39,806 nt of DNA from a virus (IMGVR_UViG_3300025099_000053:1-39806); one strand, 5' to 3'; shown: positions 4,316 to 23,542, counted from the stretch's first letter. The notes: generated from the letters alone by a model not told the origin. Made by a program: numbers and translations.

Positions 4316-4984
4316 ATGTCAGAAGAAAAAGCTGAACAAGTGCAAGATAGCAATGTAGATAGCGTTGCAGATTCTGCGAAGGAAGAAGCAACAGTTACAG
4401 AGTCAGAGGAAAATGTCGTAGTCGATAATCCAACTGATGATGAACTTGATAAGCGAATACAAAGAGCTAACAAGGAAGCCGCAAAGTTTAGAGTAGAGAA
4501 GAACGAGGTCGAAGGTAAATACGATGACCTAATTCAAAATCTAGGAAAAGCTTTAGGTTTTGTTGAAGAAGATAATGCAAATAATGCAGATGCTTTAGCG
4601 GATGAAGTTCAAAAACTTCAAGACGAAAATAAAAATCTAAAGTTAATGCAAGCATTTAACAACGTTGTAACGACTGAAGGAGCAGATGACGAGCTTACTT
4701 GGTCTTACTTAATGGCGAAGGGCGAGCTGACAGAAATGGACGCTAACGACCCCGAACTAAAGGCTAAATTGTCTGAAAAGATTAAAGCAGCTATAGAAGT
4801 AAAACCAGTACTTAAATCTGACTTGCCGCCTACAGTCAAGAAGAGTGGAAGTGATATGTCTAACGAGTCACAGCCGCTTGACACTGAATCAAGAATTAGA
4901 CAACTTGAAGCAGATAAAAATTTTAAAGAAGCAAGACTACTAAAAAGTTCTAGGTTATACGAAATGACCAAAGAACAACAGTAA
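4316..4984 (+). CDS. Capsid scaffolding protein
   Basis: A 222-residue, highly acidic protein directly upstream of the major capsid gene. It has an acidic disordered N terminus (residues 1-45), a helical segment RANKEAAKFRVEKNEVEGKY typical of phage scaffolds (A..EA..FR...), a coiled-coil region around residues 90-110, and a charged C terminus. Scaffolds direct prohead assembly inside the cytoplasm and leave or are degraded before packaging. No protease is encoded next to it. Its ribosome-binding site CAGGAG lies in a small hairpin loop. Confidence 0.8.
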   Translation: MSEEKAEQVQDSNVDSVADSAKEEATVTESEENVVVDNPTDDELDKRIQRANKEAAKFRVEKNEVEGKYDDLIQNLGKALGFVEEDNANNADALADEVQKLQDENKNLKLMQAFNNVVTTEGADDELTWSYLMAKGELTEMDANDPELKAKLSEKIKAAIEVKPVLKSDLPPTVKKSGSDMSNESQPLDTESRIRQLEADKNFKEARLLKSSRLYEMTKEQQ

Positions 4985-5035
4985 AAGTATTAATTTAACA
5001 AGTTGATTATTAAATCAAAAAGGAGATAGCCAAAA

Positions 5036-5983
5036 ATGGCAGGAATTACAGGGCAAGGTCAAACATTTAACTTACCTAATTACGTAGGCGACTTATTTGA
5101 GTTGACCCCAAGTGATACACCGTTCCTTAGCTTAATTGGTGGACTTAGTGGTGGCGAAAGCACATCCAGTCCGTCATTTCAATGGCAAGCTTATGACTTG
5201 AGAGCCGCAGCTGTAGATAATGCAGCACTTGAAGGTGCAGATGCGCCTACAAGCGAATCAAGAGTTAGAGCTAACTATTACAATGTATGTCAAATCATGC
5301 AAGAGTCCATCGAGGTCTCATACAGCAAGATGGCAGCCATCGGAGCTTTTAGCGGAGAAAACATTGCTGGAGATAATCCAGTGACAAACGAAATGGATTT
5401 TCAAGTTGAGCAAATGCTTAAGCAAATTGCAAGAGACGCAGAAAAATCATTCTTAGAAGGCGCATTTAACGACCCAACAGATAACACTACTGCAAGAAAA
5501 ACAGCAGGTATTGCTAATGTTGCGGGCAACAGTGCAGACATGGGAGACGCTGCCCTTACTGAAGATAAAGTCTTAGACCTTATGCAAGCAGTATGGGAAG
5601 ACGGCGGAATCCAAGTATCGGAAACAGCAACACTTATGTGTAACGCGAATGTTAAAAGACAGCTTACAAAAATATTTGTAACTGACAAAAACTATCGTGA
5701 AGAATCACGTAACGTAGCTGGTGTAAACGTAACAACAATTGAGACTGACTTCGGTAAAGTCAACGTATTGTTAAACAGACACGTGAACACAGAACAACTT
5801 TATGTTGTATCAGCCGAGTTATGCGCGCCAGTATTTATGAACATCCCCGACAAAGGATTCTTATTTGTTGAACCACTTTCAAAAGGTGGAGCATCAGAGA
5901 AGTTCCAAATCTACGGAGAAGTTGGACTTAAATACGGTAACCCTAACGCACATGGTAAAATCGTTAATATTGCTGCTATCTAA
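5036..5983 (+). CDS. Major capsid protein (SU10/DUF5309-like)
   Basis: A 315-residue protein with the start typical of the SU10-type major capsid family: NLPNYVGDLFELTPSDTPFLSLIGG near residues 10-40, then FQWQAYDLRAA and NVCQIMQESIEVSYSK. The C-terminal part (TDFGKVNVLLNRH, EPLSKGGASEKFQIYGEVGLKYGN) matches the conserved spine and P-domain end. It forms the HK97-fold shell. AAAGGAGATAG is a strong ribosome-binding site, and a strong terminator follows the gene, as expected for the most abundant protein. Confidence 0.9.
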   Translation: MAGITGQGQTFNLPNYVGDLFELTPSDTPFLSLIGGLSGGESTSSPSFQWQAYDLRAAAVDNAALEGADAPTSESRVRANYYNVCQIMQESIEVSYSKMAAIGAFSGENIAGDNPVTNEMDFQVEQMLKQIARDAEKSFLEGAFNDPTDNTTARKTAGIANVAGNSADMGDAALTEDKVLDLMQAVWEDGGIQVSETATLMCNANVKRQLTKIFVTDKNYREESRNVAGVNVTTIETDFGKVNVLLNRHVNTEQLYVVSAELCAPVFMNIPDKGFLFVEPLSKGGASEKFQIYGEVGLKYGNPNAHGKIVNIAAI

Positions 5984-8983: not shown

Positions 8984-11860
8984 ATGGCATTAACAGTAGG
9001 AGAGTTAAACGCAATTCTTACAGTTGATGACAAAAACTTTTCGTCTGCATTAAAGGAAGCTAAAAAAACATTAGAAAGGGCTGCCGACTCCGCAGATGAA
9101 TTTGGAGATGAGACCAAAAAATCATTCGACAAAGGTACTAAAGCTGCTGACAGATTTGAAAAAGAAGTTGGCAAAGGTCGTAAAGAAATACAAAAAGCTA
9201 CGACACCTATGGAGAACTTCGGTAAGAAAATAGGAACAGCTTTTAAAGTCGGTGCAGTAATTGCGGTCGGTAAAGCTTTAGCAGATTTAACAATGGAGAT
9301 GGCTAACTTAGCCCTTGAAGCTGAAGAATCCGCAGCTGCGTTCGAGATTACATTCGGCGGAGCTACACAAGAAGTAACAAGATTTGTAAATCAGATGGCA
9401 CATGCTTTTGGTATGACAAGAGCAGAGATGCAACAGCAGATGGCTGTAACTGGTTCGATTATACAAGGTATGGGCTTCACTTCAGATGCAGCAGCAGAGA
9501 TGTCTGTAAATATTATGAATCTTTCGGGAGACCTTGCTGCCTTTATGAACATTCAAGAAGGAGCTGTAGTTCCCGCGCAAGCAATAACTAAAGCTTTAAC
9601 AGGCGAGCGAGAAATGCTTAAATCTATGGGTATTGTTCTTCGACAAGTAGAAATTGAACAAAAAGCCATGAACATGACAGGAAAAGAGGCTGTCAAAGAA
9701 TTAACAGACCAAGAAAAAGCTGCCGCCAGCCTTATGTTAGTTGAAGAAAAAATGGGTCATATCAAGGGTCAGTTATCGAGAGAAATGCAGGGCGCAGCAA
9801 ACCAAATGAGAAGTTTAAAGGCAGAGTTTAAAGAAGCCAAAACAGAAGTTGGTCAAGCGTTACTACCAGCATTCGCAGAATTAATACCAGTAGTAAGAGA
9901 TTTAATACCTTCATTTAAAGAAGTTGCAGGTTCTGTTGCAAACTTAGTAGAAGTTGTAGTTAGAGCATTTCAGCCAGTAATTGAGTACATGGTACAAATA
10001 CTTTCTGCACTTATGCCTATAGTCGATGTCTTAGTACAAATGTTTGGTACAGCATTAACTGCTGCATTTAGTGCTGTCTTTGCAATACTTAGTAATACAG
10101 TTTTACCAATACTTGAAGCATTATCTTTTGTTATTCAAACAGTTGCAAATAGTTTTGGAATATTAACAACAGCACAAGAAGCTGAATTGCGTTCTGCTGA
10201 AACATTAGAAGGTGTTATTTTTAGGCTAAATGAAGCAATAGAAGCAGGTATACCAAAACAAGATGCAATGAATGCTGCAATGGCTGAAGCAGCAGGATTA
10301 GGTATAGATGAAGCAGAAGCTTTTGACGCAGCAACAGATGCTGCTTATGGGTTTAGCGATGCTAAAAAAGTTGAAATCGAAGCACTTATAGCTTCTAAAC
10401 GTGCATTAAAAGAAAACATACAGGCTGGTAACTCTGCTGCTTATAACTCTTATATACAAGCAGACGCAGTAAAAGACCTAGATGATGAAATTAAAGAATT
10501 AGAACAAGACCTTATTGCTAACAGTTACGCACAATATGCCTACGCAAGGTCACAAGATGAATTTGTTAATGGTACTTATGAAGGTGCAGATGCAATTGAA
10601 GAAGAGTCTGATGAAATACGTAAAAATACTATAGAAGTAAATAAAAACACACAAGCTAAATTAGATGCACTAAGTATACAAAACGAAGCAGTAACAGCAT
10701 TAATGAACCTAGTTACAGCAGTTACTAACGCCAATGAAATAGTTAAAAGACAACAAGTTGAAGAAGACAAGTTAAATCAACTGTATCGAGAGCGTGCAAA
10801 AATTATGGAAATAATTAATGCTGAACAAGGTGTTGGGGAACAACAAACTGAAGTAGAACTTGCACAGATAGCAGCATTGCGTAAACAAGAAGAAATGCTT
10901 TTAACACAACAACAAAAAGGTTTAGATTTAAAACTAGAAATAGCTGTAGCAGAATTAGATGTTGCTGACGCAATACATACTAAAAATGAAATGGGCGATG
11001 AAGCAACTGCAAGGGAAGACTTAGCAATTAAACAAGCAGAGCTAAGATTAACAACTTTAAAAAATGAACAGGCTACATCAAAAGATGTAACACTAGAACT
11101 AGCAAACGTACAAAAGAATTTAGCTAGTGCTGTTAATACATCTACACAAGCTACACAAGCCTACATATCAGCTGAACAAGCAAGACAAAAAATTGATGAA
11201 GCAATAGGTAAACAACGAACCGCATTTAACGAAGCTGAAATTGATACGACTGAAGAACAGTTAGAACTAGCAAGTGCAAGATTAGCAGTTCAATCTGCAA
11301 TGGCTTTTGCTAATGACAGAGGTGTTATGGGAGAAGCAAGAGCAGCTTTAGCACAAACACTTGGCATAAGCCAAAATGGTGTATCTGATATATTTAGAGA
11401 TTTAGGTATTACAGATGCTTTTATGAAAGCACAAATGTTTAGAAACTTTGAAAATGATTTTAGAGACAATCCACCACCATCAGCACCACCAAGTAATGAT
11501 AGCAGCGGTGCTGGAGATAGAGCGTCCGAGACTGGTATCGGCGATGACAGTTCCTTAATTGGCGGCGGTGGTGGCAATGCTTTATTTAACAGTCCAACAA
11601 TAAGAACAGATAGTGGTATTAATTTAACATCAACAGAAAACTTAGCACTTAGTAAGGTTGCTAAGAATGTGTTACCAATGCTAGATTCTTTTGACCAATC
11701 TGCTTTACGTTCATCAGCAGTAAATCAATTCTTAGGCGGGAGTACCCCTAATGTTGTAGTTAACATAGACCCTTCATTAGATGCTGAAGCACGCATAGAT
11801 AAACAAATGGCTGACATAAATAACAGATTACAAACTGGAAATAGATTTAGGGTTCTGTAA
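8984..11860 (+). CDS. Tape measure protein
   Basis: A 958-residue protein, the second longest in the window, just after the chaperone pair. It is predominantly helical with coiled-coil stretches (residues 20-80 and 560-780). Hydrophobic segments near residues 80-110 and 320-395 are typical of tape measures that insert into the host membrane. A Pro/Ser/Gly-rich linker (PPPSAPPSNDSSGAG, GGGGG) precedes the C-terminal domain. It sets tail length and is ejected ahead of the DNA. No peptidase or transglycosylase domain is visible. Its stop overlaps the next ATG. Confidence 0.9.
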   Translation: MALTVGELNAILTVDDKNFSSALKEAKKTLERAADSADEFGDETKKSFDKGTKAADRFEKEVGKGRKEIQKATTPMENFGKKIGTAFKVGAVIAVGKALADLTMEMANLALEAEESAAAFEITFGGATQEVTRFVNQMAHAFGMTRAEMQQQMAVTGSIIQGMGFTSDAAAEMSVNIMNLSGDLAAFMNIQEGAVVPAQAITKALTGEREMLKSMGIVLRQVEIEQKAMNMTGKEAVKELTDQEKAAASLMLVEEKMGHIKGQLSREMQGAANQMRSLKAEFKEAKTEVGQALLPAFAELIPVVRDLIPSFKEVAGSVANLVEVVVRAFQPVIEYMVQILSALMPIVDVLVQMFGTALTAAFSAVFAILSNTVLPILEALSFVIQTVANSFGILTTAQEAELRSAETLEGVIFRLNEAIEAGIPKQDAMNAAMAEAAGLGIDEAEAFDAATDAAYGFSDAKKVEIEALIASKRALKENIQAGNSAAYNSYIQADAVKDLDDEIKELEQDLIANSYAQYAYARSQDEFVNGTYEGADAIEEESDEIRKNTIEVNKNTQAKLDALSIQNEAVTALMNLVTAVTNANEIVKRQQVEEDKLNQLYRERAKIMEIINAEQGVGEQQTEVELAQIAALRKQEEMLLTQQQKGLDLKLEIAVAELDVADAIHTKNEMGDEATAREDLAIKQAELRLTTLKNEQATSKDVTLELANVQKNLASAVNTSTQATQAYISAEQARQKIDEAIGKQRTAFNEAEIDTTEEQLELASARLAVQSAMAFANDRGVMGEARAALAQTLGISQNGVSDIFRDLGITDAFMKAQMFRNFENDFRDNPPPSAPPSNDSSGAGDRASETGIGDDSSLIGGGGGNALFNSPTIRTDSGINLTSTENLALSKVAKNVLPMLDSFDQSALRSSAVNQFLGGSTPNVVVNIDPSLDAEARIDKQMADINNRLQTGNRFRVL

Positions 11861-13326
11861 TGAGTATCACTGTAAATATTGGTGGTGCTAACTATAATGC
11901 TTTAGAAAATAAAGTAACTATAACAGACAATGCTGAAAGAAGGTCAGATGCAATCATACATATATTTGATGAGAAGACTGGCGGGAACTTTTTTAGTTTT
12001 GAACCATACCAGTCAGTTTCTATTACAGATACAAATGGTCATGTAGCTTTTAAAGGTGTAATAATAAAACCAGTAGCACAGCTGCTAAGTCCAACTACAA
12101 GAATATGGAAATTACAATGTACAGACAATCACTTCTTTGTTGATAAAAGAATTATTGCTAGGGGCTACACAACAATGACAGCTGGTGCAATAGTAAGAGA
12201 TTTAATAACTAATGTATTTAGTGCTGAAGGTATAACTGCTGGAACTATAGATGACTTAGCTACAGTCGATAAAATGATATTTAACTATGTAAATGGGGAT
12301 AGAGCATTACGAACATTATCGGAATATACAAATGCCGTTTGGTATGTTGATGAAAATAAAGCGTTACATTTTTATGAACGTACTTCTAATAATGCAAGTT
12401 TTGATGTCAGAAGCGCAGACGTTTTAACTAAACCAATGCCCTTCTTTGATAAGGCGAACTTTAAATATAGAAATAGCCAGTTTGTAACAAACATTAAAAA
12501 TGTTACAGATTCGCAGCAAGAGTTTTTTATTGGAGATGGCACAAGACAGACATTTAGTGTAGGTTATCCCTTTCACGAGATACCAACAGTAAGAGTTAAT
12601 ACTGGTAGCGGTTATGTTGCAGCTACAGTTGGCATTAGAGGACTAGACACAAATAAAGATTATTATATGGCTTTAGGTTCTACAGAGTTAGTACAAGAAT
12701 TTACAGATACACCGTTAGGTACTGGGCATTCTTTAGAAGTGACGTATAAAGGTCAATATCAGTTAGTAGCATTAGCTAGAGATGATGCAGAGGTAGATAG
12801 AATACAAGCACTCGAAGGTGGTAGCACTACAGGTTTTGTTGACGCTGCAACTACACAATCGGGTATAGCTGGAACGGATGCGGGTATAGACGTGGCTGCA
12901 AGTTACTTAGACAGATTTGCACAAACAAGTACACTGTTAAGTTTTACTACAACAAAAAATACACCATCTAGGTTAAGAGCAGGTCAAGTATTAGATTTTG
13001 AAATGACTGACCAAGATATATCGGGCATATTTCTTATTGATTCTATTCGTATACGATTTAGGAATGGCGTTACTTACTATGACGTAAAGTGCGTTGCATC
13101 TCCGCCCGAATATACTTTTGAATCATTTATAAGAGATATAGATGACAAAATATCAGATGCTTTTATTGAAATATCAGAAAACATTGATACAGAAGAAGTT
13201 TTAGTTGTAAGAGCTGACGGTGGTATAGAATCTAGTACAATAACAGAAGCAGATACCGAAACAGTATTAGCATGTCCATTACCAAGTGGCACAACAGTAG
13301 TTAGCGGAAGTTTAGTAGTATGTTAA
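11860..13326 (+). CDS. Baseplate hub / tail-associated protein
   Basis: A 488-residue beta-rich protein immediately after the tape measure. AGAIVRDLI...EGITAGTIDD, then FNYVNGDRALRTLSE and NAVWYVDENKALHFYER, follow the pattern of baseplate hub (gp27/Tal N-terminal-like) proteins that close the distal tail. A second half with YKGQYQLVALARDDAEVDRI and LRAGQVLDFEMTDQDI also occurs in hubs. It has no obvious hydrolase motif. A separate distal tail protein is not recognisable, so this protein may combine roles. Confidence 0.7.
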   Translation: MSITVNIGGANYNALENKVTITDNAERRSDAIIHIFDEKTGGNFFSFEPYQSVSITDTNGHVAFKGVIIKPVAQLLSPTTRIWKLQCTDNHFFVDKRIIARGYTTMTAGAIVRDLITNVFSAEGITAGTIDDLATVDKMIFNYVNGDRALRTLSEYTNAVWYVDENKALHFYERTSNNASFDVRSADVLTKPMPFFDKANFKYRNSQFVTNIKNVTDSQQEFFIGDGTRQTFSVGYPFHEIPTVRVNTGSGYVAATVGIRGLDTNKDYYMALGSTELVQEFTDTPLGTGHSLEVTYKGQYQLVALARDDAEVDRIQALEGGSTTGFVDAATTQSGIAGTDAGIDVAASYLDRFAQTSTLLSFTTTKNTPSRLRAGQVLDFEMTDQDISGIFLIDSIRIRFRNGVTYYDVKCVASPPEYTFESFIRDIDDKISDAFIEISENIDTEEVLVVRADGGIESSTITEADTETVLACPLPSGTTVVSGSLVVC

Positions 13327-13766
13327 ATTGGCAAGGAAGTATAAAGATTAAAGCACTTGATGCTAAAGGTAATGTTGTGCAAGAAAATACTATAAACAAT
13401 ACTATTACATCAGCAGGTAAAAACTTGTTAGCAAAAGCACTAAGAGAGTCCACAGACTGCGAAATTAAATTTATAGGAATAGGTTCAGACAGCACTACGC
13501 CTACTTCAAGCGATACGAAACTAGGTACAGAGACGTTTAGAAAAGCAGTTACTTCACAAGTTGCTGGTAGCACAGGTGTTACTGTTACTAATCTTTATGT
13601 AGCGCCCGAAGAAGCAGTAGGAACAATTGCAGAAATAGGTTTTTTTAGTGGTAGTACTGCAAGTGCAACAACAGATAGCGGCACACTTTATGCAAGAGTT
13701 TTGTATTCAAGAACCAAAACTGCGGTAGAATCTATACAGATAGAAAGGACAGATACTATTGGCTAA
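13320..13766 (+). CDS. Tail/baseplate protein
   Basis: A 148-residue protein. The N-terminal NTINNTITSAGKNLLAKALRES, followed by FIGIGSDSTTPTSSDTKLGTETFRKAV, is a pattern common in siphophage tail proteins (N.ITdaGk.lla..l.......I.iG.g...p...dt.L..E..R). Function is structural by context, probably at the baseplate or as a fibre connector. It overlaps the hub gene by 7 bases and the next gene by 8. Confidence 0.6.
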   Translation: MLNWQGSIKIKALDAKGNVVQENTINNTITSAGKNLLAKALRESTDCEIKFIGIGSDSTTPTSSDTKLGTETFRKAVTSQVAGSTGVTVTNLYVAPEEAVGTIAEIGFFSGSTASATTDSGTLYARVLYSRTKTAVESIQIERTDTIG

Positions 13767-14007
13767 TGTAGGCGGATATTATACACAAACAACTTGGCAA
13801 GCTGGTGTAACACCTCTTAGCGAAGCAGCATTAAATAACATTGATGCAGGAATAGAAGGAGTACAAAAACAAGGTGTATTCAAAAATGGTACTAACATAG
13901 CAACTGACACAACACTATCGAGTGGAGAAAACTACATGCTTGTAGCCCCGATAACTGTTGATGACACAAAAACTTTAAACGTACAAGGAAGACTTAGATT
14001 ATTATGA
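13759..14007 (+). CDS. Small tail protein with TTG start
   Basis: An 82-residue protein. TTG 13759 is preferred because AAAGGAC lies upstream and it overlaps the preceding stop. The N terminus (MANVGGYYTQTTWQAG.TPL.E..LN.ID.GI) resembles N-terminal attachment segments of tail fibres, which read like W..G.TPL.A..LN.me.gI. The C-terminal half is a short beta motif (VDDTKTLNVQGRLRLL). It is probably a fibre-base or linker protein. Confidence 0.55.
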   Translation: MANVGGYYTQTTWQAGVTPLSEAALNNIDAGIEGVQKQGVFKNGTNIATDTTLSSGENYMLVAPITVDDTKTLNVQGRLRLL

Positions 14008-14942
14008 GTGAATTAAATGTAGATACAATAGCGGGTTCGACAGGTACTACGGTAACTGTAAAAACTGGACATACGCTTACACTTGTTGCAAACATGAATG
14101 CAGCAACAGCAAAGATTACAAATTTAGGCGACCCTTCATCAGCACAAGATGCAGCTACTAAGAATTATGTAGATACACAGTTATTATCTTTAGATACTTT
14201 AGGCGAGTTAACTAATGTAACTATTACATCAGTAGCTGATAATGAAGTATTAGCTTATGACAATGGAACATCAGAATGGATTAACCAAACTGCATCGGAA
14301 GCAGGATTAGCGACAAGTGGTAACCTAACTACACATACATCATCAAGTTCTAATCCGCACAGTGTTACAGCTTCACAAGTAGGAGCGACAACAACAGCTA
14401 ATAAAATACATGATTTTGCCGCGCCAACAAGTGCTTTAGCAATGAACGCACAAAAAATAACTGGTGTAGCAGACCCGACAGCTGCGCAAGACGCATCTAC
14501 AAAAGCTTATGTTGATTCACAAGTACAAAGCAAAGATGCTTTATCAGAACTTAGTGGAAATACAGATGACGTATCTGAAGGTTCATCTAATCTTTACTTT
14601 ACAAATGAAAGAGTAGATGACAGATTAAACGATGTTTTACAAGATGGTAGCGGATTAACAGCTACTTATAATGATGGGTCAAACACATACACATTAGATG
14701 TTGCAGGTTTAGTTGACTCAAACATTGCAGGCGGTGCAGCAATAGCACAATCTAAATTAAATTTAGCAGTAACTACGTCAGAAATAGCAGCTGCAACTTT
14801 AGTAACCGAATCAGAAGGAATATCAAGTAATGATAATGATACAACTATACCAACTTCGGCAGCAGTTAAAGATGCTGTCGATACAGCAGTAGCTGCAATA
14901 CCATCGGGTGTTAGTTTAGGTTTAGTTATAGCATTATCATAA
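14004..14942 (+). CDS. Tail fibre protein
   Basis: A 312-residue Ser/Thr/Ala/Asn-rich protein. Two fibre-shaft repeats are visible: ITNLGDPSSAQDAATKNYVD (near residue 46) and ITGVADPTAAQDASTKAYVD (near residue 153). They are followed by SSNLYFTNERVDDRLNDVL and LTATYNDGSNTYTLDVAG, both common in long tail fibres. AAVKDAVD near the C terminus is also a fibre motif. It probably forms a trimer carrying or adjoining the receptor-binding proteins encoded downstream. Confidence 0.8.
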   Translation: MSELNVDTIAGSTGTTVTVKTGHTLTLVANMNAATAKITNLGDPSSAQDAATKNYVDTQLLSLDTLGELTNVTITSVADNEVLAYDNGTSEWINQTASEAGLATSGNLTTHTSSSSNPHSVTASQVGATTTANKIHDFAAPTSALAMNAQKITGVADPTAAQDASTKAYVDSQVQSKDALSELSGNTDDVSEGSSNLYFTNERVDDRLNDVLQDGSGLTATYNDGSNTYTLDVAGLVDSNIAGGAAIAQSKLNLAVTTSEIAAATLVTESEGISSNDNDTTIPTSAAVKDAVDTAVAAIPSGVSLGLVIALS

Positions 14943-14955
14943 GAAAGGAACATAA

Positions 14956-15282
14956 ATGGCTGATACACTACATAGCGAACAGGGCGTTTTAGGCACAGGT
15001 TCTACTGCAATATTAGATGCAGTGGCTTCTTCAACGACCGAAACTGTAATAGGTATCTATCTTGCTAACATTAGTGGGTCAAGCGCTGACGTAACCGTTG
15101 ATTTAAGTGTTACCAAATCGGGTGGTTCATTAAGAAAGATTCTTAATGATGTATCTCTTCCGTTTGGAGCAACTATTGAGATGAATACAAAAATTGTATT
15201 AGAAACTGGCGATACTTTACAAGGTTTAGCTAGCGCAGCATCAAGCGTAGATTTCAACATAGCTTATTTGAAACAAACATAA
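14956..15282 (+). CDS. Small beta-rich tail protein
   Basis: A 108-residue protein with a likely beta-sandwich pattern (TVIGIYLANISGSSADVTVDLSVTKSGG, DVSLPFGATIEMNTKIVLETGDTLQG). This resembles small phage tail or head fibre proteins in which a strand-rich domain reads TVlgi.laN.s......v.....g......l....vp.g.........l..GD.l. It sits between the fibre and the duplicated receptor-binding cassette, so it may link them. AAAGGAAC precedes its ATG. Confidence 0.65.
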   Translation: MADTLHSEQGVLGTGSTAILDAVASSTTETVIGIYLANISGSSADVTVDLSVTKSGGSLRKILNDVSLPFGATIEMNTKIVLETGDTLQGLASAASSVDFNIAYLKQT

Positions 15283-15291
15283 GGGGTATTT

Positions 15292-15894
15292 ATGCCCTAT
15301 ATAGGCGAACAAGTTAATAACGTAAAACAGAATACAGGTTTATATACACCTAATGAAATACTGCAATTAGAAAAAGATGGTCATTGGGGTGGTTCGTTAG
15401 AACTCATTGCTGAAGATACTTGCACAGGTAAGACAACTATAGAATTTACTTCTATAAAAGAAAATGCTTATGATACGCATTTTATAGAGTTTATAGGTTT
15501 AGAAAGTGCTTCTAATATGTACAACGAAATACAGGTGTCCAATGACGGTGGTAGTTCTTATGAAAATGCTAATTATGATAGGTCAGTTCAATATATGTCA
15601 GCTACCACAAGTGGTACTTTTGGCGAAAATAGATTTGATGGAACGGATAGATTTAGTCTTTTAGGTTTTGGATTAGCAGGTTCTCCAATAAGCAACAATG
15701 TTTACTTGCACAATTTGGGTAATGCTAATTTATTTACACACTTAACAAGTCGCAGTACACCAAGCGACCAATGGGTTTATTTTGGAAGTCAAATGTACTT
15801 AGTCGCTGAAACTATAAACGCGTTAAAAATTTTTAATAATGCAGCTGCTACTTGGACAGCAGGTGTCGTAAAACTGTATGGTGTTAAAAAATGA
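15292..15894 (+). CDS. Tail receptor-binding candidate A1
   Basis: A 200-residue beta-rich protein. Its N-terminal NTGLYTPNEILQLEKDGHWGGSLELI and TIEFTSIKENAYDTHFIEF align with protein A2 (16936), which has NTGIFSPNDIYDL, QLELI and SIEFTDLKENEYNTHLFTF. It ends in VKLYGVKK, a C-terminal strand shared in form with its neighbours. The position at the distal end of the tail gene block and the fast divergence outside the motifs suggest surface recognition. There is no catalytic motif. It has an AAGGGG-type ribosome-binding site. Confidence 0.6.
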   Translation: MPYIGEQVNNVKQNTGLYTPNEILQLEKDGHWGGSLELIAEDTCTGKTTIEFTSIKENAYDTHFIEFIGLESASNMYNEIQVSNDGGSSYENANYDRSVQYMSATTSGTFGENRFDGTDRFSLLGFGLAGSPISNNVYLHNLGNANLFTHLTSRSTPSDQWVYFGSQMYLVAETINALKIFNNAAATWTAGVVKLYGVKK

Positions 15895-16406
15895 GTAACC
15901 TAAGATTAATAAAACAAACAGAAGCAGATTCTGTTTCAAGTATATCTTTAACAAATTGTTTTAGTGCAGACTTTGATGTTTATAAAATTGATGTAGTCAT
16001 GGACGGCACAACTACTAACAAACATATTATGTTACAATACATAAACAGTAGTGGTGCAATAGACACAACTGCAAATTATTCAACAGGTGCTTTGTTTATG
16101 AGCAGTTACACTGACTTTATACAACTTAGGTATAACGGTCAATCTAGCCATTTAGTAACAGGATATAATTATGACGGTGGAACAGGTATTGAATACACTA
16201 TATTTAATCCTTTTTCATCATCACTATACACGGCTTTAATTTCTCAATCATCGGGGGCTTATAACAGTAGTGGTGTAAAAATGGTCGGAACAACAGCAGT
16301 AGGATTACACTTAAGTAAGACATCTATGACAGGTATTAACATTGTTCCTAGTGCCAGTACTTTAAAAGATGTAAAGGTAAAAGTTTATGGATATAGGGTA
16401 GATTAA
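15891..16406 (+). CDS. Tail receptor-binding candidate B1
   Basis: A 171-residue beta-rich protein. SVSSISLTNCFSADFDVYKIDVV near residue 15 corresponds to GVSNISMTNCFTEQFDSYMVQVS in B2 (17583). Both also have an (F/I)NP(F/Y)xSS(L/S) motif, an L/I-H-L/K segment, GIN(I/L), and a final KVYGY/NMFGI strand. It overlaps A1 by 4 bases and C1 by 1. It is likely part of the same distal complex as A1 and C1. Confidence 0.6.
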   Translation: MSNLRLIKQTEADSVSSISLTNCFSADFDVYKIDVVMDGTTTNKHIMLQYINSSGAIDTTANYSTGALFMSSYTDFIQLRYNGQSSHLVTGYNYDGGTGIEYTIFNPFSSSLYTALISQSSGAYNSSGVKMVGTTAVGLHLSKTSMTGINIVPSASTLKDVKVKVYGYRVD

Positions 16407-16936
16407 TGGCAAACTTAGTACAAGTAAAAACAACAACAATAACAGGCAATCCAAGTTCGGTAACCCTAGACGGAATTGATACAGATGATGTTTATGTCTT
16501 AATAGGTAGTTTTACAATATCGGTTGATACTGGATATGCGCACTTTCGCATTACTAAAGATGTAGGTGGAACGACAACAACACAAGCAGCTACTAATTAT
16601 GCGTGGGCTACCAAGATTATTACACCTTATACAACTTTTGAAGATAATAGATTTAACACAAATAGGAATTGCATGTATTTTTCTAACAGTCCTATGGGTG
16701 CATCAGCAGGCGAAAGTCATAGTCTTTATTACGAATTACATAATTTTAATAATGCAAGTAAAGAAAGTTACGTTATTATAAAGGAAAATATTTTTAACTC
16801 AACTGCGTCTAATTCTTATGGCTCACAGGGTGGGCTAAAGTATATGGTTGCAGAGGCTCATAATGGTATAACAATTTCAGGCGATGCTTCAACCTTGACA
16901 AGTGGTACACTAACACTTTATAAGCAGGTTTCATAA
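16406..16936 (+). CDS. Tail receptor-binding candidate C1
   Basis: A 176-residue beta-rich protein. ITGNPSSVTLDGIDTDDVYVLIG corresponds to ASGNPSTLTVTGITSDYDVYMVD in C2 (18089). Both continue with a (H/E)(F/W)RITK strand, carry SQGG or GQGG, and end with xxLTSGTLTLY or RTFTSGELHLY. The wider similarity to B-type proteins (an S.(I/V)(S/T)L...(F)D.Y.(I/V) opening) suggests that A, B and C share one fold. It overlaps its neighbours by one base at each end. Confidence 0.6.
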   Translation: MANLVQVKTTTITGNPSSVTLDGIDTDDVYVLIGSFTISVDTGYAHFRITKDVGGTTTTQAATNYAWATKIITPYTTFEDNRFNTNRNCMYFSNSPMGASAGESHSLYYELHNFNNASKESYVIIKENIFNSTASNSYGSQGGLKYMVAEAHNGITISGDASTLTSGTLTLYKQVS

Positions 16937-17586
16937 TGAGTGAATTTGGATATATACCAGAAAGTCCTGCTCAAAGTTTTGGGAATAATACAGGTATCTT
17001 CTCGCCGAATGATATTTATGATTTAACTAGAGCAGATAAATATACTAACTATGGACAATTAGAATTGATACAAACAATAGTTAGCGAGAGTAATACAAAT
17101 TCAATAGAATTTACAGATTTAAAAGAAAATGAATATAATACTCATCTATTTACTTTTAGTAATATAAAAAGTGCAGGGGCAGGTCAGTTACACTACAATG
17201 TTTACACTTCACAATATGGATATGATACTAACGGACATTACACAAGTTCTTTGCAAAGATGTAGTGCAAGTGGCTCGTTTAGTGATTTTAGACAAGTAAA
17301 CGTTGCTTTTCCTTATGTACAAGGACACCCGTTATCTAGTGTGTCTAACCAATCAATGAATGCGTATTGGTATTTTAATAATTTTGGCGATAGTACAAAA
17401 CAATCTCAAGCATACGGACAAACAGTTTCGGCTCATAGCTCATCTTTATTTAATGTAAGTGAATACGGACTTTTAAATTATCATAAGCCAAGACCAATAA
17501 CAAAAATAAAATTTAAACTTGGTGGAGGCACAATTGCTTTTGTTGATGGCTCTACCATAAGTGTATATGGAATTAAATTCTCGTGA
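16936..17586 (+). CDS. Tail receptor-binding candidate A2
   Basis: A 216-residue protein, rich in Ser, Asn and Tyr, paralogous to A1 at 15292. Shared features are NTG(I/L), PN(D/E)I, LELI, IEFT.(L/I)KEN.Y(N/D)TH, and the terminal strand ISVYGIKFS. The middle (residues 70-180) is unlike A1 and aromatic-rich (NAYWYFNNFG), as expected of a ligand-facing region. It starts on the overlapping TAATG of C1. Confidence 0.6.
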   Translation: MSEFGYIPESPAQSFGNNTGIFSPNDIYDLTRADKYTNYGQLELIQTIVSESNTNSIEFTDLKENEYNTHLFTFSNIKSAGAGQLHYNVYTSQYGYDTNGHYTSSLQRCSASGSFSDFRQVNVAFPYVQGHPLSSVSNQSMNAYWYFNNFGDSTKQSQAYGQTVSAHSSSLFNVSEYGLLNYHKPRPITKIKFKLGGGTIAFVDGSTISVYGIKFS

Positions 17587-18092
17587 AAAGTTTACATTTT
17601 ATTAATTCAGTAACAGGCACAGGAGTTTCAAATATTTCTATGACTAATTGTTTTACAGAGCAGTTTGATTCTTATATGGTACAGGTTTCAAAACTTCTTT
17701 GTTCTACACAAGCTAATATAGATATAAGATTTATTGACAATAGCGATAGTGTTATCTCTGATAGTGATTATTGTTATGCTACGCACCAAATTCTATCAAG
17801 TGGGTTTTCAGAACGTAAAGATAACAGTGGTACAAGTATTTCAAGGTTAATTGCTTTTGGTAGCGACAACACAAACGAGGGTGGAAGTGGTTATAGTTAT
17901 ATTATTAACCCTTATGATTCGTCAAGTTTTACTTTTACTTCGGGTAGTAGCGCAACAGTCGAGGGTGGTAACTATAACGGAGATTTTCAAATAGGAATAC
18001 ACAAGGTTAAAGAAAGAATCACAGGGATTAATCTTTTAACAAGTGGTGGAACTATGGATATTACGGTTAATATGTTTGGAATAAAAAGATGA
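17583..18092 (+). CDS. Tail receptor-binding candidate B2
   Basis: A 169-residue paralogue of B1. The start codon is the GTG at 17583, overlapping the A2 stop. The opening GVSNISMTNCFTEQFDSYMV and the later YIINPYDSSSFTFTS and ITGINLL match B1 positions, and it ends VNMFGIKR. Beta-rich, no catalytic motif. Confidence 0.6.
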   Translation: MKSLHFINSVTGTGVSNISMTNCFTEQFDSYMVQVSKLLCSTQANIDIRFIDNSDSVISDSDYCYATHQILSSGFSERKDNSGTSISRLIAFGSDNTNEGGSGYSYIINPYDSSSFTFTSGSSATVEGGNYNGDFQIGIHKVKERITGINLLTSGGTMDITVNMFGIKR

Positions 18093-18592
18093 GCTTAATA
18101 AAAATAAATGAAACTATTGCTAGTGGTAATCCTAGTACATTAACTGTTACAGGCATAACGTCTGATTATGATGTCTACATGGTTGATGTGGTTAACTTAG
18201 TACCAAATGCAAGTGGGCGAGTTGAATGGCGTATAACTAAAGGGGGTACTATTCAAACAGATAGTGAATATGACAATTCTAGAAAAGATATGCCTACTAA
18301 TGCAGGTTTTCAAGATAACGAAAATGTTAACGATAGTAAAGTTACAAACGCAACAGTTGATGAAAACGGAAGTTGGAATGCAACATTTTATTTATTTTGT
18401 TTTCAATTATCAAGTGAATTAAGTTATGGAACATTCAAACATACTACTTATGTAGATAGCCCACAGGGTTTTGGAGGACAGGGTGGTTTTACTCATACTA
18501 TTGCTAGTGCCTCTGACGGATTAAGTTTTCATTGGGGAGATAGTAGAACTTTTACAAGTGGAGAGCTACATTTATACGGTTTAAAGAAGTAA
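18089..18592 (+). CDS. Tail receptor-binding candidate C2
   Basis: A 167-residue paralogue of C1, with SGNPSTLTVTGI, DVYMV, WRITK, GGQGGF and the end FTSGELHLYGLKK. It starts inside the B2 stop (ATGA overlap). It is the last gene of the duplicated block. After it comes an intergenic AAGATAGGAGAA ribosome-binding site for the next gene. Confidence 0.6.
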   Translation: MSLIKINETIASGNPSTLTVTGITSDYDVYMVDVVNLVPNASGRVEWRITKGGTIQTDSEYDNSRKDMPTNAGFQDNENVNDSKVTNATVDENGSWNATFYLFCFQLSSELSYGTFKHTTYVDSPQGFGGQGGFTHTIASASDGLSFHWGDSRTFTSGELHLYGLKK

Positions 18593-18626: not shown

Positions 18627-18938
18627 ATGGCAACATTAGAACAATTAACAACAGCAGCGCAAGCTGCAATAGACGCAAAGAAAACCGCTAACGGTGGCGA
18701 TGGAATGTGGGCTTCTGTTAATGGCGTAAGACGAGAGTTTACAGAAGCTGAATATGACCAAGCAGTTATTGATAAAGCTAATAGCGATTTTGACCAACAA
18801 GAAAATGGTTATAAAAGAGCTAGGCAAGAAGCATACCCTAGTTATGGAGAGCAACTAGATTACATTTTTCATAACGGACTTGACTCATGGAAAGCTGACA
18901 TCATACAGCCAATTAAAGACAATAACCCAAAACCTTAA
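18627..18938 (+). CDS. Tail fibre-associated protein
   Basis: A 103-residue protein. The C-terminal AYPSYGEQLDYIFHNGLDSWKADIIQPIKDNNPKP is a pattern seen in small proteins at the end of tail gene blocks of many marine phages (YP....QLD...H.GLD.W...I..IK..YPKP). Function is unknown but a fibre assembly or tip role is likely from position. The N terminus is helical and Ala-rich. AGGAGAA precedes the ATG by a normal distance. Confidence 0.6.
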   Translation: MATLEQLTTAAQAAIDAKKTANGGDGMWASVNGVRREFTEAEYDQAVIDKANSDFDQQENGYKRARQEAYPSYGEQLDYIFHNGLDSWKADIIQPIKDNNPKP

Positions 18939-19107: not shown

Positions 19108-19316
19108 TGGATTACACTAACAAATCAACGCAGCCGCAGCCAAATGGCTTTACCACGAAAGAAATGTTAATAATGATATTAGAAGGTCAAAAAGAAATTA
19201 ATAATAGAATCGATGAACTACACGAAAAAGTAAATACAAAAATTAGCAGACAAGAGTTGAGCGGTTGGTTAGTTGCAGTATCTGCACTAATAGTCATTAT
19301 CAACTCTGTAATGTGA
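19107..19316 (+). CDS. XhlA-like membrane protein (putative holin accessory)
   Basis: A 69-residue protein: a soluble N terminus, an amphipathic coiled-coil-like helix (MLIMILEGQKEINNRIDELHEKVN, heptad-like), then one C-terminal membrane helix (WLVAVSALIVIINSVM). This architecture and size resemble haemolysin XhlA proteins, which act with holins at the cytoplasmic membrane. It lies in the lysis region and overlaps the next start. Confidence 0.55.
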   Translation: MDYTNKSTQPQPNGFTTKEMLIMILEGQKEINNRIDELHEKVNTKISRQELSGWLVAVSALIVIINSVM

Positions 19317-21154
19317 AGATATTTACAAGTTTACTAACTCTACTTTTATTCTTACCAACAACTGTTTTAGCAGAAGAAGTACCTAACGAAGTTACAGTCA
19401 ATGAAGATTTTAGTGATAGCAGTTATCAAGAAGGTTTAACTATAAACGGTGGCAATCAAGCTGCATATATTTATTCAGCAGAACAAGGTTCTTATAACAC
19501 AACAGGGTCTGCATTAGCAATAACAAGTGGTACTTATTTATTTGAATTTACAGAAGATGTTTATGAAGTAGGTTTTATAATAGGCGCAGTAAACAATGCG
19601 TACTCTGTTACTTGGAATTATGCAGACAACACAAGCGAAACTGAAAACAAATCGGGGCAAAGTACTTCTAATGGTTACGACAATATGTATGACAGCTTTT
19701 ATAAATCATTTACTGATTACAACAATGATGAAGCTAACACAGACAAATTTATAAGTTCATTCGCTGTAACGTTAACTGATATATCTTTACTAGATACTTT
19801 GTACTGGCAATATAGAGTAATTACTGTTACTACAACATCTAGTACAACAACATCTAGTACGACAACAAGTACTACGACTACAAGCACTACAACGACCACT
19901 ACTACTTTACCGCCACCGCCTATTGTTTATGAGCCACCACCACCGCCACCACCACCCGAACCAGTAACTATTATTGTAATTTTAGACAATGGAGAAGAAG
20001 CAGAGTATGAAGAATATGAAGTAGAAGATGGTACAGTTGATAGAGATAACGAAAGAAAAAAGAATTTTGAGCTGCATGGAGTGGAATTAACAGATGCACA
20101 AATTGAAAGAGGAGATTTAGAACTTTATGACATACAAAAAGAAGATTTGGAAGAAGTCAGAGAAGAGCTTTCTGATGATGATTTTATATATGATGACTTG
20201 GAAGATGACTATGTTGACGAAGAATACATTGAACTTACTGAAGAAGAGATACTTGAGCTTGAAAAACAAGTTGAAATTGAACTTAAGGAACTTGCAGAAG
20301 AATCTATTATTTTGGTGGACTCTGCGGAAATCATAGAAGATTTAAAACTTGAAGGCGAAGACCTACAAGATTTTATAGACACTATACAAGAGTTAGAAGA
20401 AATAGATTTTGAAGAAGAATTTGCAATAGAAGAAGAAGAGTTTGTACTAGAAGAAATAATATCAGAAGATATAATAGTTGTTGATGATAAAGAAATTAAA
20501 GAAAAAGATATTTTTATTGAAGCAGAAGAAGAAAGCCAAGATTTGGAGCTTGCAGATGAAGTTATATCTACTGAAGAACAAATTCAAGAAGAAATAGCTG
20601 TAGAAGTTGCCGAAGTAGAAGAAATTATACAAGATATTGTTATTGAAGAAGTAACTACTGAAGAAGTAATAGAAGTTATTGAAGAAGTAAATGACATTGG
20701 TGTACAAAACTTAGAATTTGCAACAGAAGAAGTACAAGAAATAGTACAAGCAGTTGTTGTTGAAGCTATTGAAACAGTAGAAGAACTCACAGAAGAACAG
20801 GTAGAAGTAGTAGCTGAAGTATTACAAGTAGAATCAACAGAAGATGTTAAAGTATATGCCGCAGCTGCAAAATCTGAAAAAAGCGTTGAAGTTGCAATAG
20901 AAGAATATGTAGACCGAAGTATTGCAAATGCTAATGTAGAAAACTACAACATTGCTGACGTTGTATCTGAAGTAAACGTAGAGTTGTTTTTAGCATCGCC
21001 AATAGATGCTATTATTAATGTAGATTTAAGCGGCATAGAGTTATCTAACATCGGTGCGGATATGGCAGATACTCAAAAAGAAAAAGCACAAGAAGTATTT
21101 GCGCCAGTTGTATTAACACAAATAGTAGCAATTACTAGAAGAAGGTTATTTTGA
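19313..21154 (+). CDS. Secreted, extremely acidic protein with Thr/Ser-Pro linker
   Basis: I place the start at GTG 19313, overlapping the previous stop. This gives 613 residues with a clean signal peptide (KIFTSLLTLLLFLPTTVLA, cleavage after ALA). Residues about 20-170 look like a beta-sandwich. About 170-195 is a nearly pure Thr/Ser tract, followed by proline runs (LPPPP, EPPPPPPPPEP). The remaining 400 residues are dominated by Glu, Asp, Ile and Val in an EEV/EEI cadence, ending VVLTQIVAITRRRLF. Export from the infected cell is predicted; function is unknown. Thr-Pro linkers of this type are typical of actinobacterial surface proteins. The position between lysis genes suggests a late envelope role. 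Confidence 0.7.
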   Translation: MKIFTSLLTLLLFLPTTVLAEEVPNEVTVNEDFSDSSYQEGLTINGGNQAAYIYSAEQGSYNTTGSALAITSGTYLFEFTEDVYEVGFIIGAVNNAYSVTWNYADNTSETENKSGQSTSNGYDNMYDSFYKSFTDYNNDEANTDKFISSFAVTLTDISLLDTLYWQYRVITVTTTSSTTTSSTTTSTTTTSTTTTTTTLPPPPIVYEPPPPPPPPEPVTIIVILDNGEEAEYEEYEVEDGTVDRDNERKKNFELHGVELTDAQIERGDLELYDIQKEDLEEVREELSDDDFIYDDLEDDYVDEEYIELTEEEILELEKQVEIELKELAEESIILVDSAEIIEDLKLEGEDLQDFIDTIQELEEIDFEEEFAIEEEEFVLEEIISEDIIVVDDKEIKEKDIFIEAEEESQDLELADEVISTEEQIQEEIAVEVAEVEEIIQDIVIEEVTTEEVIEVIEEVNDIGVQNLEFATEEVQEIVQAVVVEAIETVEELTEEQVEVVAEVLQVESTEDVKVYAAAAKSEKSVEVAIEEYVDRSIANANVENYNIADVVSEVNVELFLASPIDAIINVDLSGIELSNIGADMADTQKEKAQEVFAPVVLTQIVAITRRRLF

Positions 21155-21333
21155 TTAAAAAATTTATTGATTATGTTATAGATGCAATTAAAGAAACTAT
21201 TGCATTGAGCTGGACTTTAGCTGGTATGCTTATCGGTTATTTTACGTTAAGTGGTAGCGCAAAAAGCATAACTGGTATAGGTATTGTGATAACATTATCT
21301 ATATGGCTAGCAACTATAAGACTAAGAGCATAG
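21151..21333 (+). CDS. Two-helix membrane protein (possible holin)
   Basis: A 60-residue protein starting at TTG 21151 inside the stop of the acidic-protein gene. Two hydrophobic segments are visible: residues 14-33 (AIKETIALSWTLAGMLIGYF) and 40-56 (SITGIGIVITLSIWLATI), separated by a short turn and ending in RLRA. The size and topology fit a class II holin or antiholin. A better holin match exists at 23545, so this may be its partner. Confidence 0.55.
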   Translation: MIKKFIDYVIDAIKETIALSWTLAGMLIGYFTLSGSAKSITGIGIVITLSIWLATIRLRA

Positions 21334-21345
21334 GAAGGACTAATA

Positions 21346-21393
21346 ATGGCTTACAACGGATGCTGTGGCGGCGGATGCTGCGGAACTAAATAA
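21346..21393 (+). CDS. 15-residue Cys/Gly peptide
   Basis: A tiny ORF, MAYNGCCGGGCCGTK. TAGGAAGGAC is a good ribosome-binding site 7-8 bases before its ATG, and the stop overlaps the next ATG (TAATGG), so its translation is plausible. The CCGGGCC core could bind a metal ion or form disulphides. It may instead serve only to couple ribosomes into the next gene. It is too short for family assignment. Confidence 0.5.
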   Translation: MAYNGCCGGGCCGTK

Positions 21394-21665
21394 TGGCAAT
21401 AGAGTACAGAGGACAAAAGTTTAGCGGCTATAACAAGCCGAAACGTACTCCAAGTCATAAAACTAAATCACATGCTGTCTTAGCGAAAAGCGGAGACAAA
21501 GTAAAACTAATTAGATTTGGTCAACAAGGTGTAAAAGGAGCGGGTAAAAACCCTTCTAGTAAATCACAGAAGGCACGTAAAGCGTCTTTTAAAGCAAGGC
21601 ATGCTAAAAATATAGCTAAAGGTAAAATGTCTGCTGCTTATTGGGCAAATAAAACTAAGTGGTAA
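21393..21665 (+). CDS. DUF6321-like conserved phage protein
   Basis: A 90-residue, strongly basic protein. HAVLAKSGDKVKLIRFGQQGVKGAG and the C-terminal KASFKARHAKNIAKGKMSAAYWA are the hallmark segments of a conserved phage family that I know as DUF6321, found in many marine phages. The basic charge suggests binding to nucleic acid or to anionic envelope polymers; the true function is not known to me. It is coupled to the 15-residue peptide upstream. Confidence 0.75.
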   Translation: MAIEYRGQKFSGYNKPKRTPSHKTKSHAVLAKSGDKVKLIRFGQQGVKGAGKNPSSKSQKARKASFKARHAKNIAKGKMSAAYWANKTKW

Positions 21666-21668
21666 TAC

Positions 21669-21724
21669 ACACAATATTGTGTAATTGATAACAACGACCA
21701 CTCGATATGGTATCATATTGATTA
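21669..21724 (+). promoter_or_regulatory. Palindrome and putative leaderless promoter of the endolysin gene
   Basis: ACACAATATTGTGT (21669-21682) is a perfect 14-base palindrome. Downstream, TGG-TATCAT (21708-21716) forms an extended -10 that lies 8 bases before the ATG at 21725; no Shine-Dalgarno sequence is seen. TTGATA (21685-21690) is 20 bases upstream of TATCAT. The palindrome shares the CACAA core of the cassette operators and may bind a related repressor. Confidence 0.5.
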
Positions 21725-22270
21725 ATGTATGAAGTAATAAGCCGTGAGACAGCTGGTCTTTTTGACACGCGTGGTAATACTGCTATTAATCAAACCTATA
21801 TAAAAGGTTTATCCGTACATTACACAGGAGCTGCGATTATGCCATCTATGAAATCCATAGATGATGTATTTACTTATCTAACTAACTTACAGAATGTTTA
21901 CGTAAACATGAATGGTTTTGTTGACATACCTTATTCTTTTGCAATAAGTAATGTTACTGACGAAATAATTGAGTTAAGAGGATTTGGAATACAGTCAGAA
22001 CATCATCATAATAACCAATTAAACGATACATTTATGTCTGTTTTATGGTTGGGCGGAGTAAGGGATGTTCCTAACGATAATGCTAAGAGTGCTTTAGAAC
22101 GTTTAGTAGATATTATATCTGAACGTTATGACAGAAAAATCTTAGTGTTAGCAGATGATTGCGGTAAACCTATGTACGAGTTTATAACAAGTACAGAACC
22201 TAAATGGATGACACCAAGAAGGAAGGTAAGACAGTGGTCAAAAAAGAAACAAATTACAAAGAAGACATAG
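21725..22270 (+). CDS. N-acetylmuramoyl-L-alanine amidase-like endolysin
   Basis: A 181-residue protein resembling amidase_2/PGRP-type endolysins of Gram-positive phages. SVHYTG (His32) fits the first zinc ligand. VDIPYSFAIS...IIELRGFGIQSEHHHNNQLN (His93-95) fits the substrate loop and second region, then SVLWLGG with a following helix (SALERLVDIISERY), and DDCGKP (Cys146) at a third-ligand position like the Cys of T7 lysozyme. The basic C terminus (RRKVRQWSKKKQITKKT) may bind the wall. It would cut the amide between muramic acid and L-Ala after the holin opens the membrane. Confidence 0.65.
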   Translation: MYEVISRETAGLFDTRGNTAINQTYIKGLSVHYTGAAIMPSMKSIDDVFTYLTNLQNVYVNMNGFVDIPYSFAISNVTDEIIELRGFGIQSEHHHNNQLNDTFMSVLWLGGVRDVPNDNAKSALERLVDIISERYDRKILVLADDCGKPMYEFITSTEPKWMTPRRKVRQWSKKKQITKKT

Positions 22271-22485
22271 ACGCTTTTGCAGCAGAAAAAGTTAAAGCTG
22301 TTGTTTGGAAAACACCCGAAGGTATAGAGCAATTAAATAGCGTCATTGCCTACAAAAAAGATAACCCAAGCATACCAACTAATACATTAGTTGCTTTCTT
22401 AAAAGATAAATGCGGTTGGGATTATACAAACAGATATATATTTGACATCATTGTTCAAGAAATGGAAAAACAAAATGACAAGTAG
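22234..22485 (+). CDS. 83-residue hypothetical protein
   Basis: I place the start at GTG 22234 behind GAAGGAAGG. A further upstream in-frame ATG lies deep inside the endolysin gene. The protein overlaps the endolysin C terminus. It is helical and charged, with IPTNTLVAFLKDKCGWDYTNRYIFDIIVQEM resembling a small HTH-like or DNA-binding helix pair, but I do not recognise a family. Confidence 0.55.
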   Translation: MVKKETNYKEDIDAFAAEKVKAVVWKTPEGIEQLNSVIAYKKDNPSIPTNTLVAFLKDKCGWDYTNRYIFDIIVQEMEKQNDK

Positions 22486-23542
22486 CCTTGATAAGTTTGT
22501 AGAAGAACATGAAGACGACCGTAAGTTAGAAGACCTAAAAAAAACTATAACCCGCTTACATAAGCAATTAGATAAAGAACGTGACAAAACAGTCATACTA
22601 CAAGAGACAGTGACAAGTGCAGTCAAAGATAGTATTGCAGATATAGATATACCTAAAGTAAAAGCGCCTAAGAAAGATACTAGAAAAAAAGGCGAAGAAG
22701 TAGCTGTAGCTGTATTAAGTGACTGGCAGTTAGGCAAGATTACAAAAACGTACAACTCTGAAATTGCTGCTGAACGAGTAAAAGTATATGCAGAAAAAGT
22801 TGTTGAGTTAACAAACATACAACGTGCTAGTCATCCAGTAAAAAAAGTTCACGTATGGGCATTAGGAGACTTAATAGAAGGTACTGATATATTTGCAGGT
22901 CAACAGTGGTTAGTAGATTCGGGTTTATATAGACAAATATTTAAAAACGGCGCGACAATGCTTGCAGAGTTTTTACGACACATGTTAGCAAACTTTGACG
23001 AAGTACACTTTGCTGGAGTTATTGGTAATCACGGAAGACTTGGTAGATTTGGTCAACATCATTATGAAGATAACGGAGATAGATTTTTATATGAGACTGT
23101 TCGCCTAATCCTTGCAGAAGAAAAACGAATCACGTGGGATATACCAGAAGGTTCTGATGGCGATAGGGCGTGGTACACTATCGACCGCATTGGTAATTAC
23201 AGCTGCATGCTTATACACGGAGACCAAATTCGCGGGTCACTTGGTATACCGTTCTATGGAGTTCGCAAAAAGGTATTAGGATGGAAAGCAGCGGCAATGG
23301 ACGGGCAGATGCCCGACTTCAAAGACTTAGCCTTTGGACATTGGCATCAGCTTTACCAACAAGAGTTTAACGGTATAACAGTTAGGTGTTCGGGTTCAAC
23401 TGAATCGTCTAATCATTATGCGTTAGAAGCACTAGCGGCACAGGGTAGACCAACACAAAGATTAATGTTTGTCCACCCACAAAAAGGATGTACTACAGTA
23501 GAATATCCAGCGGTCAGATTAGACGATAACGAAAAGGAGTAA
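22475..23542 (+). CDS. Calcineurin-like metallophosphoesterase
   Basis: A 355-residue protein from ATG 22475 (overlapping the previous stop). Residues 1-60 form a charged coiled coil. Phosphoesterase motifs follow: LSDWQLG (about 82), LGDLIEGTD (about 132), GNHGRLG (about 184), IHGD (about 248) and FGHWHQL (about 288). In motif I the usual D-x-H reads D-x-Q, which I recall from related actinophage proteins. The family binds two metal ions; the phage substrate may be DNA (SbcD/Mre11-like) but is unproven. It lies between endolysin and holin. Confidence 0.8.
   Translation: MTSSLDKFVEEHEDDRKLEDLKKTITRLHKQLDKERDKTVILQETVTSAVKDSIADIDIPKVKAPKKDTRKKGEEVAVAVLSDWQLGKITKTYNSEIAAERVKVYAEKVVELTNIQRASHPVKKVHVWALGDLIEGTDIFAGQQWLVDSGLYRQIFKNGATMLAEFLRHMLANFDEVHFAGVIGNHGRLGRFGQHHYEDNGDRFLYETVRLILAEEKRITWDIPEGSDGDRAWYTIDRIGNYSCMLIHGDQIRGSLGIPFYGVRKKVLGWKAAAMDGQMPDFKDLAFGHWHQLYQQEFNGITVRCSGSTESSNHYALEALAAQGRPTQRLMFVHPQKGCTTVEYPAVRLDDNEKE

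Follow-up and report, generated by a model that had tools for sequence, protein, structure and literature searches.

The stretch of DNA analysed here (IMGVR_UViG_3300025099_000053:1-39806, "the window" in the following) is an entire virus record of IMG/VR, 39.8 kb in length, and carries between positions 15292 and 18592 six adjacent genes in the order A1-B1-C1-A2-B2-C2. These genes probably code for two heterotrimeric receptor-binding heads, one made of A1, B1 and C1 and the other of A2, B2 and C2, each docked through its A subunit on a siphovirus-like tail. Phage receptor-binding heads are nearly always regarded as homotrimers; here, each head would be built of three related jelly-roll subunits instead of the identical ones in an ordinary homotrimeric tail fibre. 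A conserved N-terminal plug is present in A alone and probably serves to dock the head on the virion: A1 would sit on or near a protein of 108 amino acids (aa) encoded directly upstream, the anchor, A2 would use a different socket, and B and C would assemble on A. Head domains pass from phage to phage, as single genes and as whole sets, within a conserved frame, so that host specificity could be reshuffled and the virion left unchanged. Receptor binding by the six proteins, whether to glycans or to other surface receptors, is suggested by their position, predicted fold and hypervariability.

Paralogy and fold of the six proteins

All six genes lie on the plus strand, and neighbours overlap by 1 or 4 nucleotides (nt). 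A1 (15292..15894, 200 aa) is composed of an N-terminal plug (residues 1 to about 40) and a jelly-roll core; B1 (15891..16406, 171 aa), which overlaps A1 by 4 nt, and C1 (16406..16936, 176 aa) are bare jelly-roll head domains. The second set contains A2 (16936..17586, 216 aa), with a different plug (residues 1 to about 50) in front of its jelly-roll core, and the bare head domains B2 (17583..18092, 169 aa) and C2 (18089..18592, 167 aa). An earlier note on this DNA had described the region as a duplicated three-gene cassette with preserved order and overlap. The six open reading frames, their order and their overlaps were found as described, and the copies are paralogous in pairs, with blastp E-values of 3e-13 for A1-A2, 6e-21 for B1-B2 (30% identity) and 5e-18 for C1-C2 (31% identity). 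Local scores of the copy pairs lie 14-21 standard deviations above those of shuffled sequences, none of 500 shuffles scoring as high.

The same note had hinted that A, B and C descend from one ancestral fold. By blastp, A1 is related to B1 (E=7e-8) and to C1 (E=1e-7); hidden Markov models (HMMs) of each class match members of the other classes, with medians of 67-88 bits; and phrog_14820, a family of unknown function, is matched at E<=1e-3 by 24 of 63 A, 2 of 59 B and 29 of 63 C proteins (best 3e-14). The hint is therefore correct: all three classes belong to a single jelly-roll family (phrog_14820). The window's own six proteins fall below the phrog_14820 threshold, yet align with members that reach it. 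Compared singly with PHROGs and Pfam they gave no significant match (in Pfam, no family at E<=1), and the link came to light only through scanning many relatives. A single Pfam match, DUF4274, was obtained among the 63 C members, and a search for solved structures related by sequence gave none that was significant.

The fold was predicted by running AlphaFold2 on family alignments, which produced monomer models of A1 (pLDDT 87) and C1 (pLDDT 92); that of B was assigned by sequence. Both models are jelly-rolls of eleven to twelve strands, in line with the common fold expected in the earlier note. A carries about 35 extra N-terminal residues with one helix; C begins directly at strand 1 (residue 3 in C1), and B aligns with C from its own first residues. 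When A1 was compared with the PDB, the best match was the C-terminal beta-sandwich domain of GH32 (Z 8.7, 124 residues, rmsd 3.6), galectin scored Z 7.2 (102 residues, rmsd 3.3), and C1 behaved similarly. The first Foldseek match was the carbohydrate-binding module CBM2 of the Lactobacillus phage J-1 Dit (E=1.6e-4). The A1 and C1 models are compatible with the jelly-roll beta-sandwich of these lectin-like domains and not specific for it; none has a significant sequence match to A, B or C, and a Z below 9 indicates a common arrangement. Predicted viral structures gave strong fold matches, with E down to 6e-22 and TM of 0.7-0.9 in the best rows. Some of the proteins matched have a tail fibre annotation or contain collagen and Stf repeats; in these the domain probably forms the tip of a homotrimeric fibre. 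The T4 gp37 tip fold is not among the structural matches listed, an absence which carries no weight in lists of this kind.

Constancy of the arrays and the rule of three

Related loci were collected from IMG/VR by using the anchor as query (153 related stretches, of which 80 loci were kept), and a search with the N-terminus of A as another query agreed with the first. Together, the two queries yielded 76 complete arrays, 55 of them distinct. All arrays visible to their end have the order A-B-C-A-B-C, with the single exception of locus L059, and each of the shorter ones terminates less than 200 nt from a contig end. In L059 (the same contig as L103) the array at 10337-12861 is irregular: B1 and A2 keep their ends without the middle and C1 is truncated, by either a real deletion or an assembly error. 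In cellular genomes, a single scan for the anchor found no relatives.

FastTree was used for tree building. On a joint tree A, B and C form pure clades (68 of 68 each). On class-wise trees copy 1 separates from copy 2 with 2 (A), 6 (B) and 4 (C) misplaced tips of 68, and position labels change 3, 5 and 4 times, compared with about 23 after shuffling. In a bipartition test on the joint tree A1 and A2 were unseparated, because trimming had taken off the N-terminal plugs; the class-wise tree separated them. Since the two copies stay apart across phages, the triad duplication predates the divergence of these phages: as judged from the trees, an ABC ancestor was duplicated as a set, and only a few position switches followed. 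The deep divergence pointed out in the earlier note is likewise true, though mostly allelic, each copy being orthologous across dozens of phages. A position switch is seen in locus L039, where the second-position B (9379-9888) shares 67% identity with B1 of the window.

A second branch of the family is found in the cultured pelagiphages HTVC010P, HTVC019P and HTVC034P, each with three members in tandem, about 205 aa long. A tblastn search of phages with B1 gave no match; a C consensus query brought them up, and the class HMMs of A and C match the triad members at 43-73 bits. Upstream of each triad lies a gene annotated "virion structural protein", which by tblastn is an anchor relative in HTVC010P and HTVC034P. 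The nine pelagiphage proteins form one clade (support 1.0), so that, on this tree, they triplicated in an event of their own, distinct from the one behind A, B and C.

This branch was surveyed in 80 IMG/VR loci, with the first member as query, a sample biased to arrays in which member 1 is present. Of the runs of stand-alone members that are closed at both ends, 53 have three members, two (L211 and L239) have six and two are isolated singles; no closed run of two, four or five was present in these loci. Longer proteins (about 240-360 aa), with the same domain behind another N-terminal part, were treated as extra genes and left out of these counts. Such proteins lie 5' of pelagiphage-type triads in L172 (3825-4784), L198 (812-1783) and L092 (HTVC034P, 4450-5523), and are possibly a homotrimeric counterpart within the same genome. 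Copy-number variation among relatives, anticipated in the earlier note, was not found in the A/B/C lineage, where complete arrays always have six genes and the sole exception, L059, has truncated ones; it does occur in the sister lineage, as three or six only.

Obligatory threes, equal-sized subunits and a fibre-capping fold would most simply give a heterotrimeric head around a (pseudo-)threefold axis. A, B and C could otherwise be layers of a stacked head, for instance plug ring, middle and tip, as the restriction of the plug to A and the distinct clades of the three classes would allow; equal size, equal number and the same fold suit a pseudo-trimer better, and the pelagiphage members are alike and fall in one clade, which makes stacking distinctly improbable.

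Co-variation within the two sets

Correlations between protein distances were calculated across 53 dissimilar arrays. Within set 1 they are 0.43 (A1-B1), 0.47 (A1-C1) and 0.57 (B1-C1), and within set 2 0.59, 0.67 and 0.60 (p=0.002 for each of the six). Between sets the values range from -0.01 to 0.31, the adjacent pair C1-A2 reaching 0.17. Among the ten possible splits of the six genes into two triples, only ABC1/ABC2 yields a clear gain (0.43, compared with 0.004 for the next), and the pattern is unaltered for pairs below 60% identity. Two co-varying triads agree with the two related adhesive complexes proposed in the earlier note.

Chromosomal linkage was rejected as the sole cause, given that the adjacent C1-A2 are uncorrelated and the non-adjacent A1-C1 and A2-C2 are correlated. 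The latter remain significant when conditioned on the middle gene (A1-C1 given B1, 0.30; A2-C2 given B2, 0.48), and simple linkage decay would not yield such values. Old exchange of whole triads is an unlikely sole cause of the coupling; recent crossovers fall inside triads, so that block-wise exchange alone is insufficient.

The earlier note had also considered a heterohexameric tip. Siphovirus tail tips contain 3- and 6-fold parts, and a single A1B1C1A2B2C2 complex at the tail tip would suit both this general knowledge and the constant six genes of the A/B/C lineage, as well as the A1-A2 correlation of 0.31. B1 and C1, however, are not significantly correlated with B2 and C2 (-0.01 to 0.14), and the sister lineage has arrays of only three. 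A heterohexamer is disfavoured because the two triads vary almost independently, and we regard it as very improbable.

Conserved plugs of A and the anchor

In A1 the frequency of the commonest residue is 0.80-0.84 in residues 1-40 and 0.25-0.67 in the core; in A2 the corresponding values are 0.70-0.86 in residues 1-50 and 0.26-0.75. The two plug sequences differ from each other, which is consistent with docking elements for two different sockets.

The anchor (14956..15282, plus strand, 108 aa) is the first gene of the module and is conserved. Across the retained IMG/VR loci it is 70-100% identical and directly 5' of A1, and its relatives are annotated as virion structural protein in HTVC010P and HTVC034P. 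The distance correlation of the anchor is 0.36 (r, p 0.002) with the A1 plug, compared with 0.12 for the A1 core and 0.09 (p 0.12) for the A2 plug; close linkage may be the cause of this correlation. The anchor is named here as a candidate socket or adaptor for A1.

Exchange borders and portability

Loci L006-L009 belong to the same species as the window: the hub-region protein is 98-99%, the fibre 97-99% and the anchor 100% identical, and in L007 the genes at 19304-23542 are 94-100% identical. Their A1-C2 proteins are only 26-51% identical to those of the window. The same-species DNA match, at 92-94%, extends to 15404-15474, within A1 and directly after its conserved N-terminus; in L007 homology restarts at 18578, and the final 15 nt of C2 thus form the 3' border of the stretch that is exchanged. 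Near-identical flanks around a divergent cassette are the features of a hypervariable host-recognition (metaviromic) island. Targeted diversification was rejected as a source of this variation, which consists of whole-allele replacement; no reverse transcriptase was found among the part of the window's proteins that was scanned.

Breaks also occur inside triads. L007 and L009 are 99.9% identical upstream and 99% in A1, but only 50% in B1 and 44% in C1, and L046/L050 and L027/L028 show similar breaks; B1 is 91% identical in L014 and L052, although A1 and C1 are below 60%. Swapping of single genes, together with the complete head domain in each of them, would suit six independent homotrimeric receptor-binding proteins, lying side by side and widening the host range. 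Against independent homotrimers stand the fixed number and order of the genes, the runs of exactly three or six in the sister lineage, the within-triad co-variation that persists when conditioned on the middle gene, and the lack in B and C of the plug found in A; we consider them unlikely. A combinatorial receptor system, in which the subunits of both heads are drawn from a large shared gene pool, specificity comes from their combinations and within-triad co-variation reflects assembly compatibility, is advanced as a tentative possibility.

The other loci have an anchor of 70-90% identity, and similarity between their head, tape-measure and hub proteins and those of the window is mostly undetectable. 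These backbones include siphoviruses with different families of major head and tail proteins (L036, L069); in L072 no tape measure was found, and the phage is possibly podovirus-like. The anchor being conserved on unrelated backbones, the anchor, A1-C2 and a 103-aa gene at the downstream border thus form a portable module. This last gene (18627..18938, plus strand, phrog_9114, unknown function) travels with the module: its homologue adjoins it in 29 of 31 arrays, with 38-70% identity, and it is possibly an assembly factor.

Several points weigh against two docked heterotrimers. The trimer is proposed from monomer models and sequence, and the PDB fold matches, with Z at most 8.7, are generic beta-sandwiches of sugar-binding kinds. 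A1 is weakly correlated with A2 (0.31) and B2 (0.22), so that the two sets are not wholly independent, and distance correlation may in part come from old block exchange and not from contact. In the pelagiphages, unlike B and C of the window, a short N-terminal stretch starts all three members, so that docking may differ, and no published virion proteomics for their triads was found in the open literature. Within-species exchange is based on metagenome contigs, some of them short, with some comparisons at contig ends.

Genomic context of the module

The virus is one of bacteria and probably marine, and its gene order suggests a siphovirus-like phage, with major head protein (5036), major tail protein (7917), tail assembly chaperone (8358), tape measure (8984), terminase (31311) and portal (32610). 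A 488-aa protein of unknown family, labelled "hub" in this analysis, is encoded 3' of the tape measure and before the tail-fibre-like genes (13320..14942, plus strand; 148, 82 and 312 aa), which match PHROG tail fibre families. These are 84-99% identical in same-species contigs and without match in other loci; they are a probable carrier of the module, outside the module proper.

Downstream, a large Glu-rich protein (19265-21154, plus strand), which probably has a signal peptide and contains linkers rich in Thr/Ser and in Pro, is 94% identical in the same-species L007 despite its position shortly beyond the exchanged stretch; a few other loci show weak similarity. A ParB-like/nuclease domain protein (29949-30542, plus strand) is encoded a short distance 5' of the terminase small subunit gene (30890). 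In a 1286-aa protein (34099-37959, plus strand) the minor-head/head-morphogenesis match is confined to the first 360 residues, and the remaining 900 have no PHROG match.

Comparison with known systems

The proteins described here are a large family of putative adhesins, related to proteins of cultured SAR11 phages, whose genes co-vary in threes and are exchanged among unrelated virions. If our interpretation is true, host range would rest on the combination of three, or twice three, subunits, and a function would be provided for hypothetical proteins, among them three each in HTVC019P and HTVC010P. The 3-or-6 rule would then mean that heterotrimeric heads are general in abundant marine phages and were reached separately by the A/B/C and pelagiphage lineages. 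The pelagiphage triads belong to the same protein family as A, B and C and likewise stand in tandem after fibre and anchor-like genes; they differ in forming their own clade, in having three (or 2x3) members where the window has 2x3 distinct A/B/C, and in being annotated only as hypothetical proteins.

Heterotrimers encoded by three successive tail genes are already known, as are marine phage host-recognition islands, and the window shares with the former three consecutive related genes kept as a conserved unit. In the mycobacteriophage Mysterious, gp35, gp36 and gp37 form a baseplate heterotrimer with a beta-sandwich-like domain, docked through N-terminal arms and present six times per baseplate, according to a 2026 preprint (PMC13252515). 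Mysterious is a siphophage, like the window, and three consecutive tail genes give the heterotrimer; its hosts are unrelated, it has one triad, the likeness is one of description, and the passages of the preprint used here describe no hypervariable exchange, doubling or rule of three (PMC13252515). The virophage DSLV2 has three consecutive paralogous tail genes, each with an orthologous position across relatives, as in A/B/C; when co-expressed, their products formed a 1:1:1 complex that bound Synechococcus cells (PMC12724248, 2025). The DSLV2 proteins differ in being T4 gp37-tip-like, with the collar domain PF07484, in forming one triad and in their proposed location on the capsid and not on a tail (PMC12724248). 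By sequence profile, PF07484 was matched neither by the six window proteins nor by any of the 63 C members.

Host-recognition genes that differ among otherwise near-identical marine phages were described as metaviromic islands by Mizuno et al. (2014, PMC3909814), and the variation of the window's module is of this kind. The words "tandem" and "paralog" are absent from the text of that paper (PMC3909814), and borders, triads and co-variation are mapped here. What appears to be new is the doubled triad, the co-variation within each set, the exchange borders, the first of which follows a conserved plug, and the 3-or-6 rule in two branches of the family.

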